64,000 nt of DNA from Verrucomicrobium sp. GAS474. Its GTDB lineage: Bacteria; Verrucomicrobiota; Verrucomicrobiia; Methylacidiphilales; GAS474. Position 1 is the stretch's first letter. Every line of letters starts with the position of its first letter. Positions 14,843 to 19,614 of the stretch are shown one piece after another. Under the pieces are notes generated by a model that was given only the letters and a program-made list of their open reading frames with translations, made no database searches and was not told where the DNA came from. The stretch covers positions 3,100,001 to 3,164,000 of the forward strand of contig NZ_LT629781.1 of NCBI RefSeq assembly GCF_900105685.1, read 5' to 3'. The position numbers were made by a program, and so were the translations under genes.

Positions 14843-15226
14843 TTATTTTTTCGCCGCAGGAGCCGCCGCAGGCGCTTCGGACGACGCCGCGGCCGAAGCG
14901 GGAACGGGCGCGGGAGCGGGCGTCGCCGCCGGGGCGACCGCCGACGCGTCGGGCTGCACCAGCCGCTTGTGGAGGGACGATTCGGCGGCCCGGTGGCTCG
15001 TGAGGTAGGCCAGGAGGATGGCGAGGAAGAAGAACATCCCCGTCAGCCACGAGGTGAACTTCACGAGGACCGCCGAGGTCTGGGCGCCGAAGACGGTCTC
15101 GGTCAGGCCGCCGCCGAAGGCCGCGCCGAGGCCGTCCTGCTTCGAGCGCTGCATGAGGATGGCGAGGACCAGCAGGAGGCTGAGGCCGACGAAGAGGACG
15201 ATGAGGATGTCGATCAGGATGTTCAT
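14843..15226 (-). CDS. secG: preprotein translocase subunit SecG
   Basis: 127-residue protein with two membrane helices (residues 4-23 and about 53-75), joined by the conserved cytosolic loop QRSKQDGLGAAFGGG. It is an auxiliary subunit of the SecYEG channel in the inner membrane. The C-terminal third is an Ala/Pro-rich tail, longer than in the E. coli protein and of low complexity. It follows tpiA by 30 bp, and tpiA-secG adjacency is common across bacteria, which supports the call. Confidence 0.92.
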   Translation of the reverse strand: MNILIDILIVLFVGLSLLLVLAILMQRSKQDGLGAAFGGGLTETVFGAQTSAVLVKFTSWLTGMFFFLAILLAYLTSHRAAESSLHKRLVQPDASAVAPAATPAPAPVPASAAASSEAPAAAPAAKK

Positions 15227-15256
15227 GGACGTGTATCTTGGAAGGGAAAGGCTGAC

Positions 15257-16051
15257 TTAGCTGGCCGCGCCGGGCTCGGCCGCGCTCAGGACGATCGCCG
15301 CGAAGCCGCGGGCGTCGAGGCTCGCGCCGCCGACGAGGGCGCCGTCGATGTCGGGCTGGTGGAGGATCTCGGCGGCGTTCTCGGCCTTCACGCTGCCGCC
15401 GTACTGGATGCGGATCTTGCGGGCGACCTCGGCCGAGATGTTCTTCTCGATGAGGCTGCGGATGAAGGCGTGGGCTTCCTGCGCCTGGGCGGGAGAGGCC
15501 GTCTTGCCGGTGCCGATGGCCCAGACGGGCTCATAGGCGATGATGATGTCGGAGAAATCCTTCTCGGGAATCCCGTCGAGGCCGCCGGTGAGCTGCTTCG
15601 TGAGGACCTTCTTCCAGACGGCGTCGCCGCCTTCCCGCTCCTTCAGCGTCTCGCCGACGCAGAGGATGGGGCGGAGGCTGCCCGCGAGGGCGACCTTGAC
15701 CTTCTCGTTGATCAGGGCGTCGCTCTCGGCGAAATACTGGCGGCGCTCCGAGTGGCCGACGATGACGTACCGGCAGTAGACGTCGCGGAGCATCGCCACC
15801 GAGATTTCCCCGGTGTAGGCGCCGCTGGCCGCCTGATGGACGTTCTGCGCGCCGAGGAAGACGTTCGGGACCTCGCCGACGAGCTCGGCGACGACGCCGA
15901 GCGCGGTGAAGGGGGGAATGAGGACGATGTCGGCCTGATCGAACTTCTTCACTTCGTTCAGGACTTCGGCGGCGAGGAGCTTCGCCTCGGTCGCCGTCTT
16001 GTTCATCTTCCAGTTTCCGGCGATGATCTTTTTACGGTAAATCTTCGACAT
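15257..16051 (-). CDS. tpiA: triosephosphate isomerase
   Basis: 264-residue TIM-barrel enzyme interconverting dihydroxyacetone phosphate and glyceraldehyde 3-phosphate. It shows AGNWKMN at residues 11-17 (catalytic Asn and Lys), VIVGHSERRQYF (His) and AYEPVWAIGTG (catalytic Glu and flexible loop). The ATG at 16049-16051 gives the standard N-terminus. A TTG 48 bp upstream is in frame but less likely. It follows pgk by 66 bp in the gap-pgk-tpiA-secG series. Confidence 0.96.
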   Translation of the reverse strand: MSKIYRKKIIAGNWKMNKTATEAKLLAAEVLNEVKKFDQADIVLIPPFTALGVVAELVGEVPNVFLGAQNVHQAASGAYTGEISVAMLRDVYCRYVIVGHSERRQYFAESDALINEKVKVALAGSLRPILCVGETLKEREGGDAVWKKVLTKQLTGGLDGIPEKDFSDIIIAYEPVWAIGTGKTASPAQAQEAHAFIRSLIEKNISAEVARKIRIQYGGSVKAENAAEILHQPDIDGALVGGASLDARGFAAIVLSAAEPGAAS

Positions 16052-16117
16052 AAATAAGTTGGGTCGGTTTTCCTCGGTCAGCAAGGAGGGGTTATTCAAG
16101 CAGAACCGGCAAGGCGG

Positions 16118-17335
16118 TCAAGCCTTGTCGGGAATGCAGGCGACGCCGGGGAGGACGGCTCCTTCGAGGAATTCGAGGGAGGCGCCGCCGCCCGTCGAGA
16201 TGAAGGAAACCTTGTCGGCCACGCCCGCGCGCTTCACCGCCTTCACCGAATCGCCGCCGCCGATGATCGTGACGGCCTCGCGGTTCGCCGCGACGGCCTC
16301 GGCGATGGCGAAGGTCCCCTTCGCGCATTCCTTGACCTCGAAGACGCCCGCCGGGCCGTTCCAGAGGACGGTCTTCGCCGTGGCGATCTCGGCCGTCCAG
16401 AGCTTCACCGTCTCAGGCCCGATGTCGACCCCTTCCCAGCCGTCGGGGATCTGGTCGCCCGGGTTGGTGTAGCGGCCGGGGGAGACCGTCTTCTTCGCGA
16501 AATCGAATTCCTCGACGATGTAGTTGTCGACGGGAAGGAGGAACTTGACCCCCTTGGCCTTCGCCTTGTCGAGGGCCGCCAGGGCGGTGCCGACCTGATC
16601 GGGCTCAACGAGGGACTTGCCGACCTTCTTGCCGAGGGCGAGGGCGAAGGTGTAGGCCATCGCGCCGCCGATCAGGATCGTGTCGGCCTTATCGAGGAGG
16701 GAGTCGATCACCTTGATCTTGTCGGAGACCTTGGCCCCGCCGAGGATGACGACGAAGGGCTTCTGCGCGTGGGCGACGGCGTCGCCGAGGAACTTCAGCT
16801 CCCGTTCCATGAGGAGGCCGATCCCCTTTTCCTTCACGAACTTGGCGACCCCCTCGGTCGAGGCGTGGGCACGGTGGGCGGCGCCGAAGGCGTCATTGAT
16901 GTAGACGTCGGCGAGCTTGCCGAGCTGGGCGGCGAAGACGGGATCGTTCTTTTCCTCCTCGGCGTGGAAGCGGGTGTTCTCCAGGAGGAGGATCTCGCCG
17001 TCCTTGAGCGCGGCGGCCTTGGCCTCGGCGACGGGACCGACGGTCTCCTCGGAGAACTGGACGGGGGTGCCGCTCAGCTCGGCCAGGCGGACGGCGACGG
17101 GGGCGAGGCTCTCCTTCACGTTCTTCTTCCCCTTCGGACGGCCCATGTGGGCGCAGAGGATGATCCGGGCGCCCTTTTCGCGGAGCAGCTTGATCGTCGG
17201 CAACGTCTCGCGGATGCGGGTGTCGTCGGTGATGACGTAGGCGCCGTCCTTTTCGTCGAGCGGGACGTTGTAGTCGACGCGCACGAGGGTGCGGAGTCCG
17301 TTGAGCTCGAGATCGCGAATCGTTACTTTGGCCAT
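16118..17335 (-). CDS. pgk: phosphoglycerate kinase
   Basis: 405-residue two-domain glycolytic kinase making ATP from 1,3-bisphosphoglycerate. Visible signatures are VRVDYNVPLDEK near the N-terminus, AHMGRPKG, and the C-terminal nucleotide loop IGGGDSVKAVKRAGV. The ATG at 17333-17335 gives MAKVTIRDLEL, the normal beginning. A longer upstream frame runs through the gap-pgk spacer and is rejected. Gene order and same-strand spacing place it in one operon with gap and tpiA. Confidence 0.96.
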   Translation of the reverse strand: MAKVTIRDLELNGLRTLVRVDYNVPLDEKDGAYVITDDTRIRETLPTIKLLREKGARIILCAHMGRPKGKKNVKESLAPVAVRLAELSGTPVQFSEETVGPVAEAKAAALKDGEILLLENTRFHAEEEKNDPVFAAQLGKLADVYINDAFGAAHRAHASTEGVAKFVKEKGIGLLMERELKFLGDAVAHAQKPFVVILGGAKVSDKIKVIDSLLDKADTILIGGAMAYTFALALGKKVGKSLVEPDQVGTALAALDKAKAKGVKFLLPVDNYIVEEFDFAKKTVSPGRYTNPGDQIPDGWEGVDIGPETVKLWTAEIATAKTVLWNGPAGVFEVKECAKGTFAIAEAVAANREAVTIIGGGDSVKAVKRAGVADKVSFISTGGGASLEFLEGAVLPGVACIPDKA

Positions 17336-17392
17336 GGCTGGGGGGAAGGTGGGGGAGGGTTGGTCTGTTTGTGCTTGTGCTTGGGAAGAGCA

Positions 17393-17428
17393 ACGCCGCA
17401 CGCCCCGAGATTTCGGAACGTGCGGCGT
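17393..17428 (-). other. hairpin in the gap-pgk spacer
   Basis: ACGCCGCACG (17393-17402) pairs perfectly with CGTGCGGCGT (17419-17428), giving a 10-bp stem on the mRNA between gap and pgk. No T-run follows on the minus strand, so it is not a standard intrinsic terminator. It could act as an mRNA processing or stabilising structure that makes gap more abundant than the distal genes. Confidence 0.5.
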
Positions 17429-17447
17429 GCGGGAGGAAGCCTCGGTA

Positions 17448-18708
<1,261 letters not shown>

Positions 18709-18982
18709 CAGAAGCTTTTTCGTTATTCCGGCAGGGCGCGTTGGGGCAGAATTGGCCTGATGGCGCGACGCCGAGCCGAAGCAATACCCGCAGTGGTCTT
18801 GTGAGATCGGCAACAAAGCCAGCAGGCCAATTCTGGCCCAACCCTCCGGGCTGGAGGGATTTTACTTTCCTCCGTTGTTGCTCGCGGCTTATGTGTGTCG
18901 CACACACACCGCGCCGCTCGCGCCTAGGCGGAAAGTAAACTTCCTCACAGCGCGCCCTGCCGGAATAACGAAAAAGCTTCTG
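18709..18982. repeat. 274-bp palindromic element with perfect 32-bp terminal inverted repeats
   Basis: Bases 18709-18740 (beginning CAGAAGCTTTTTCG) are the exact reverse complement of 18951-18982, all 32 positions matching. Inside lie further inverted repeats: 18741-18758 with 18825-18842 (AGAATTGGCCT core, one mismatch) and TTACTTTCC (18862-18870) with GGAAAGTAA (18930-18938). The element would fold into a long stem carrying two hairpin arms. No transposase frame is present and I see no target-site duplication. It ends 2 bp before the ATG of the next gene, so it forms that gene's leader. A MITE-like or REP-derived element is likely. Confidence 0.75.
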
Positions 18983-18984
18983 AT

Positions 18985-19614
18985 ATGGAAACCGCACCGG
19001 CAGCCTCCCCGATCCTCCACCCCTTCCGCCGTCTCTACAATTGGACGATCCACTGGTGCTCGACCCCCTATGCGATCCCGGCCCTCTGCCTCGTCGCCTT
19101 CGCCGACGCCTCGTTCTTCCCGATCCCGCCCGAGGCGATCCTGATCCTTCTCGCCTTCGCCCATCCGAAGAAGTGGTGGCTCTATCCGCTGATCGCCCTC
19201 CCCTTCTCCCTCCTCGGCGCGGTCGTTGGGTGGAACATCGGCCATCATGGCTGGAACCTGATCGGGCCGTGGATGTTCGCCCATATCCCGGGCTTCCACC
19301 CGGAGTTGTTCGACAAGGTCTCCGCCGAGTACCAGAAGAACGCCTTCCTCGTCCTGATCGGCGGCCCGTTCACCTATATCCCGGCGAAGGTCTTCACCAT
19401 CACCTCGGGCATCTGCGGCGTCCCGCTGACGACGCTCCTCATTGCCGACGCCATCGGGCGGGGGGCGCGCCTCCTTCTCGTCGCCTTCCTCATCCGGGCC
19501 TTCGGGGAGAAAGTGCGCGACCTGCTGGAGAATCACTTCAAGAAGTTCATCCTGATCGCGGGATTGGTCGTGATTCCGCTGCTGATTCTGATCAAGGTGC
19601 TCCACTCCCGCTAG
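18985..19614 (+). CDS. YqaA-like membrane protein (VTT/DedA-related)
   Basis: 209-residue multi-pass inner-membrane protein. FADASFFPIPPEAILILLAF and GGPFTYIPAKVFTITSG are the re-entrant, proline-containing segments of the SNARE-associated/VTT family, closest in layout to YqaA. Family members are linked to lipid scrambling or membrane homeostasis, but the substrate here is unknown. The ATG sits 2 bp after the palindromic element, which therefore provides the leader and any ribosome site. The stop TAG shares the palindrome CTAG with the stop of the convergent gene. Confidence 0.78.
   Translation: METAPAASPILHPFRRLYNWTIHWCSTPYAIPALCLVAFADASFFPIPPEAILILLAFAHPKKWWLYPLIALPFSLLGAVVGWNIGHHGWNLIGPWMFAHIPGFHPELFDKVSAEYQKNAFLVLIGGPFTYIPAKVFTITSGICGVPLTTLLIADAIGRGARLLLVAFLIRAFGEKVRDLLENHFKKFILIAGLVVIPLLILIKVLHSR

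Follow-up and report, generated by a model that had tools for sequence, protein, structure and literature searches.

A palindromic element before a YqaA-like gene of Verrucomicrobium sp. GAS474 is probably an IS5-type MITE with a conserved folding core

Introduction

A palindromic element lies at 18709-18982 of a 64-kb stretch of the Verrucomicrobium sp. GAS474 chromosome (the whole stretch analysed, 64,000 nucleotides, is called the window here), where it is the strongest compact inverted repeat, and the start codon of a YqaA-like gene follows 2 bp past its end. The locus raises the question of whether the element is a fixed leader of that gene or a mobile sequence, and also a broader one. 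The middle of a MITE is usually regarded as a passive stretch between two end sequences for the transposase; a conserved core under unrelated ends raises the question of whether folding helps a DDE-mobilised element multiply. Here, we report that the window element is probably an IS5-type MITE, mobilised in trans by an IS5-family (IS1031-like) DDE transposase and carrying a conserved folding core.

Results

The element and the gene beside it comprise the following features (basis of each call in brackets).

18709..18740, + strand: left terminal inverted repeat, CAGAAGCTTTTTCGTTATTCCGGCAGGGCGCG (sequence)
18740..18842, + strand: inner hairpin 1, 25-bp imperfect stem plus tip (R1 match)
18842..18850, no strand: junction mini-hairpin CCC-TCC-GGG (fold)
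18851..18950, - strand: inner hairpin 2, best-conserved tip (R1 match at 18859-18941)
18951..18982, + strand: right terminal inverted repeat, exact reverse complement of the left (sequence)
18985..19614, + strand: YqaA-like membrane protein gene (VTT domain, E 6.8e-7, just below the Pfam cut-off)

The original prediction, made from the letters of the window, holds in its anatomy. The arms at 18709-18740 and 18951-18982 are exact reverse complements over the 32 bp claimed (the repeat extends to 35 bp with one mismatch), the two further inverted repeats said to lie inside are the two inner hairpins, and the ATG at 18985 agrees with the predicted end 2 bp before the gene. Open reading frames called mechanically across 18709-18982 include none that is gene-like, as claimed, and the flanks, with ends placed as in other copies, are CCA (left) and TGA (right), so that no 3-bp target duplication is visible, again as claimed. 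Judging by copies that do have TNA duplications, the mobile part of the window copy would start at G18711; its target duplication, if it had one, is now gone. Both inner hairpins share one tip motif, the second inverted relative to the first. R1, a covariance model of the tip hairpin, matches the first tip region at 18750-18832 (+ strand, E 2.5e-5), and the second tip, read on the - strand, is CTAGGCGCGAGCG...CGAGCAACAACG. On its other side the element adjoins an ordinary, operon-like gapdh-pgk-tpi-secG run (14843-18497, minus strand, read by eye).

Folded as RNA, the window element reaches a predicted energy of -173.7 kcal/mol, against -101.8 +/- 5.8 for shuffled sequences (z -12.4); z was -12.6 when it was folded as DNA and -13.6 for the opposite strand. 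The predicted single-strand fold is a cloverleaf, consisting of a long outer stem, two long hairpins and the CCC-TCC-GGG mini-hairpin between them. Among ten two-hairpin elements folded, nine have a CCC-NNN-GGG mini-hairpin.

The genome of the window (G000; one contig, 3.76 Mb) carries about nine full copies and several partial relatives. Three further copies belong with the window copy to type I (73-81% alike), and a type II subfamily comprises five copies (83-96% alike) plus shorter derivatives. The outer stem is about 31-33 bp in all of them, with strongly divergent sequences (AGAAGCTTTTTCGTTATTCC in the window copy; AGAACCTACTTCACGACTGG, AGAACCTGGTTTATGAATAG, AGAGACTGTGAAACAAATAG and AGAGCCTGTCCTGCACTTTG in others), despite which the hairpin tips are near-identical. 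A 16-bp match at 2674416, before another gene, was rejected as a chance match (E about 1).

Beyond this genome, the tip pattern occurs at 25 places in GTDB-based contigs, labelled Verrucomicrobia, Acidobacteria, Burkholderiales, Betaproteobacteria (complete chromosome CP070643.1) and Parcubacteria; taxon labels of MAGs can reflect contamination, but in the Betaproteobacterium all 24 matches lie on one chromosome. R1 matched in 14 of 387 Verrucomicrobiota genomes (13 of 197 genera). Matches, which count hairpins and thus count an element with two good tips twice, numbered 39 each in Acidobacteria nzgw75 and Verrucomicrobia Loclat, 24 in Betaproteobacterium bin90, 19 in Burkholderiales Loclat, 4 in a Parcubacteria bin, and 26 and 6 in two congeners. 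In one lineage, elements with only a single hairpin measure 162 bp. The plasmid, phage and viral collections searched held no match to the element, and an Rfam covariance-model search at gathering and relaxed thresholds gave no useful match. An occurrence that is patchy and multi-copy and crosses phyla is in keeping with mobility and horizontal spread. R1 can also be used to pick out many elements that lack annotation in environmental genomes.

The tip reads 5' CNAGGC-GC-GA-GC-GA opposite a 3' strand GA-GC-GA-GC-AAC, in which Watson-Crick GC steps alternate with tandem G-A mismatches (a G-A ladder). Across 22 tip hairpins from several phyla, 92.9% of cells were paired, against 66% when shuffled and 40-47% when slid, and double-sided changes were present at 13 of 14 stem pairs; the corresponding values for 111 hairpins, in an alignment fitted to the model, were 92.7% and 18 of 18. 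In AV genomes the ladder changes from GCGAGCGA/GAGCGAGC to GCGAGGGA/CGACCGAGC, so that the steps become GG/CC and the G-A mismatches are retained, a pattern that favours a folded strand over direct repeats in duplex DNA. The inner stems are widely divergent yet still paired, and are common to elements with unrelated ends. On the tip-forward strand, G-U events exceeded A-C events (46 and 21, counted once per lineage and column), a weak hint of selection on the strand bearing the G-A tips, as the covariance model used for collection and alignment may favour G-U.

When pairing is kept was judged from paired and unpaired changes in the outer arms, counted in registers set by hand (the register of a few rows is off by one base, which leaves pairing within a row unaffected). 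Between subfamilies in the Acidobacterium (G390), 48 changes were paired and 13 unpaired; in G000 and the congener G002 together, the counts were 114 and 14, the 114 being inflated by perhaps 15-30 through out-of-register rows. Recent copies gave 0 paired and 9 unpaired changes in AV and 4 and 24 in Loclat Verrucomicrobium (G393). Individual copies thus seem to decay freely after insertion, with pairing preserved in the multiplying lineage and not at each host site. A shared transposase could explain parallel change of the two terminal arms, which could simply track it, but does not so explain the inner stems; only these and the tips argue for folding. Because paired changes fall between subfamilies and unpaired ones between recent copies, we infer that folding, of single-stranded DNA or RNA, serves the element in multiplying rather than the host at individual sites.

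The main rival to this inference accepts a MITE but derives the paired stems from copying of one arm onto the other (hairpin template switching) during replication or transposition, with no selection on a folded molecule. Such copying would produce arms of widely differing sequence that are nonetheless often perfect complements, and recent copies that then decay through single changes; it would erase the conserved mismatches at the tips, the G-A ladder and the AGGC/AAC loop. Tips that covary with their mismatches kept therefore argue against copying alone, as does the excess of G-U over A-C on one strand, a measure that is possibly biased. We regard arm-to-arm copying as a serious possibility, though an unlikely one as the whole explanation, and prefer a folding core.

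As to the enzyme, with the ends set at one fixed boundary (A|G...C|T), 15 of 39 copies had identical 3-bp flanks, against about 0.6 expected at 1/64, and all 15 have the form TNA (TAA, TTA, TCA or TGA); many further copies also have a TNA duplication. None is visible in the window copy, in copies e3 and e4 or in most type II copies, and the sequence around type II copies is TA or CTAG; the Betaproteobacterium copies have no TNA duplication. A candidate source of the transposase was found in G002.

L112:1133-2021 (G002): insertion sequence of 889 bp, flanks TTA/TCA, ends GAAGCTGTGAAAAAAGTC

The frames of this insertion sequence match the IS5-family model NF033580, DUF4096 (PF13340) and DDE_Tnp_1 (PF01609). 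Its ends match MITEs of the same genome: the terminal sequence GAAGCTGTGAAAAAAGT compares with GAAGCTGTGAAAGAAGT, the start of a MITE (L055) that has TAA on both sides. Only the initial GAAGCT of the window copy agrees with the ends of this insertion sequence, and it counts against the IS5 link that the match lies in a congener and covers ends only. At a second PF01609 match in G002 (L113), no terminal repeats like those of the element were seen. ISLrh, a member of the IS1031 group within IS5, combines TNA duplications with ends GAACCTGTCTAGTATCT (PMC12016507), and these ends are close to the GAACCTG ends of the G000 copies e2 and e3. That the family consists of IS5-mobilised MITEs is well supported, and we infer that an IS5-family (IS1031-type) transposase also moved the window copy itself. 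A PF01609 search of G000 found no DDE_Tnp_1 match; with no such gene and no target duplication, the window copy may be stranded.

Mobilisation in the manner of REP/REPIN, in which the hairpins would serve a single-strand (HUH, Y1) transposase as its substrate, would suit the conserved tips, the folding constraint and a window copy with no target duplication. We consider it quite improbable: TNA duplications in many copies and ends in common with a DDE-type insertion sequence are unexpected for HUH elements, and 270 bp compares poorly with 20-40 bp.

Several other palindromic elements occur near or within copies. Beside the G002 insertion sequence, L112:1083-1138 is a 56-bp near-perfect palindrome (TCTTAGAGCCTATCCGAATAACC...GGATAGGCTCTTAGA) with TTA on both sides and several more copies in G002; it is a mini-element that is all stem and has related ends. 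At L058:1675-1899, a long palindromic element of another kind (TCTAATACCAAGTCA...) directly abuts a MITE, and an insertion within one hairpin of L055 resembles part of it; such elements nest and may exchange hairpins. Two copies in Loclat Verrucomicrobium (L074 and L085) have no left stem, TACATAACATAGTAATA being joined straight to the tip CTAGGCG, which suggests recombination or another element at that point. In the Betaproteobacterium (G389), L208:194-402 is a near-continuous 73-bp imperfect inverted repeat running through both tips, possibly a fold-back derivative.

Congeners were compared at the insertion sites. Empty sites were found at all three loci tested, one of them precise. The yqaA locus of G002 (YqaA protein 84% identical) has the same conserved upstream DNA with the element absent; the prmC-murA copy is precisely absent from G002, the alignments of L004 5-1478 and 1751-3225 meeting at L250 position 1496; and G001 has neither the prmC-murA nor the pstA-pstB copy. 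The simplest history is that the window copy arrived immediately ahead of the yqaA start codon once the lineage had separated from G002.

Of the four type I copies, three stop 2-4 bp short of an ATG, that of yqaA, pstB or murA. The pstA-pstB and prmC-murA copies occupy short gaps between co-directional genes and are for this reason probably co-transcribed with them. As read from these junctions, the gene starts next to type I copies were evidently retained, and a side effect of the element on the mRNA is possible.

A fixed, structured regulatory leader of the yqaA mRNA (riboswitch-like or an attenuator) would account for the position 2 bp ahead of the start codon, the very stable fold and the strong covariation in the family. 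It is nevertheless very unlikely: G002 has the yqaA locus without the element, the same element stands before murA, pstB and elsewhere, it occurs in both orientations relative to the downstream gene, and Rfam offers no match of note. Sequence comparison of G000 and its congeners gave no sign of a dedicated-leader role for the window copy. The least likely reading is a non-mobile DNA structure (intergenic terminator, chromosome-organising repeat or attC-like recombination site), which the palindromic, intergenic, multi-copy character would allow and which the precise empty site and the target duplications contradict; the size and tip of the element are also, we presume, at odds with attC.

These results separate the two origins that the original prediction had left side by side. 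It had proposed a search for many copies with variable flanks and for an empty site; multiple G000 copies lie at different sites, and the G002 yqaA locus is element-free. A single copy conserved in place, named there as evidence against mobility, is not what was found, the element being multi-copy in G000 and absent at yqaA in G002. A small element mobilised in trans is favoured by the multi-site copies, the empty sites, the TNA duplications and the congener's IS5-family insertion sequence with matching ends. A dedicated yqaA leader as the origin is abandoned in view of elements in both orientations ahead of unrelated genes and the empty G002 site.

Discussion

At family level, the elements have every feature of the MITE definition applied: they are short, non-coding and dispersed, with terminal repeats, empty sites and target duplications. 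For the IS5-type MITE preferred here, an IS5-family transposase would act on the terminal repeats, usually duplicating a 3-bp TNA target. The core between the ends, two inverted hairpins and the mini-hairpin, would form a cloverleaf in one strand; pairing would be maintained while the stem sequence changes, and the fold may help multiplication as single-stranded DNA or RNA.

More tentatively, the core could be a widespread, undescribed module of cloverleaf and G-A ladder that has moved between phyla and from one IS5-type end sequence to another, and that must fold as single-stranded DNA or RNA for the element to multiply; we hold this stronger version possible but doubtful. If it is true, the spread of DDE-mobilised MITEs would include a step that depends on structure. 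Open-access literature searches (most subscription papers and ISfinder lay outside their scope) returned no paper with the letters of the tip motif, the nearest being general papers on MITEs and REPs. We thus found no earlier description of a conserved cloverleaf core under unrelated ends across phyla, which is no proof of novelty.

Among known systems, REP/REPIN sequences, with TnpA_REP, resemble the element as palindromic intergenic repeats with conserved hairpin features; they are 20-40 bp long, tagged GTAG or CGTC and moved by HUH transposases (PMC3733652). The size and anatomy of the element do not fit such a palindrome, and this identity was rejected. AGCGA-quadruplex DNA recalls the tip, which has AGCGA repeats and G-A alternating with G-C pairs; the quadruplex needs four repeats (PMC5442326), and the likeness, drawn from the letters of the tip, is a lead only. 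With the IS1031 group of the IS5 family (ISLrh, PMC12016507), the elements share GA(A/G)CCTGT... ends and, in many copies, the 3-bp TNA duplication, and a congener carries an IS5-family insertion sequence with matching ends; they differ in having no internal transposase gene and in the CTAG/TA, not TNA, contexts of type II copies. Bacterial MITEs such as Correia/NEMIS, RUP and ERIC (PMC2229807) are likewise short, non-coding and dispersed, with terminal inverted repeats and target duplications, are often beside genes, and have transcripts predicted to form long stems. In contrast to these, the elements described here conserve their core and tips across phyla under unrelated ends, with wide compensatory change in the inner stems.
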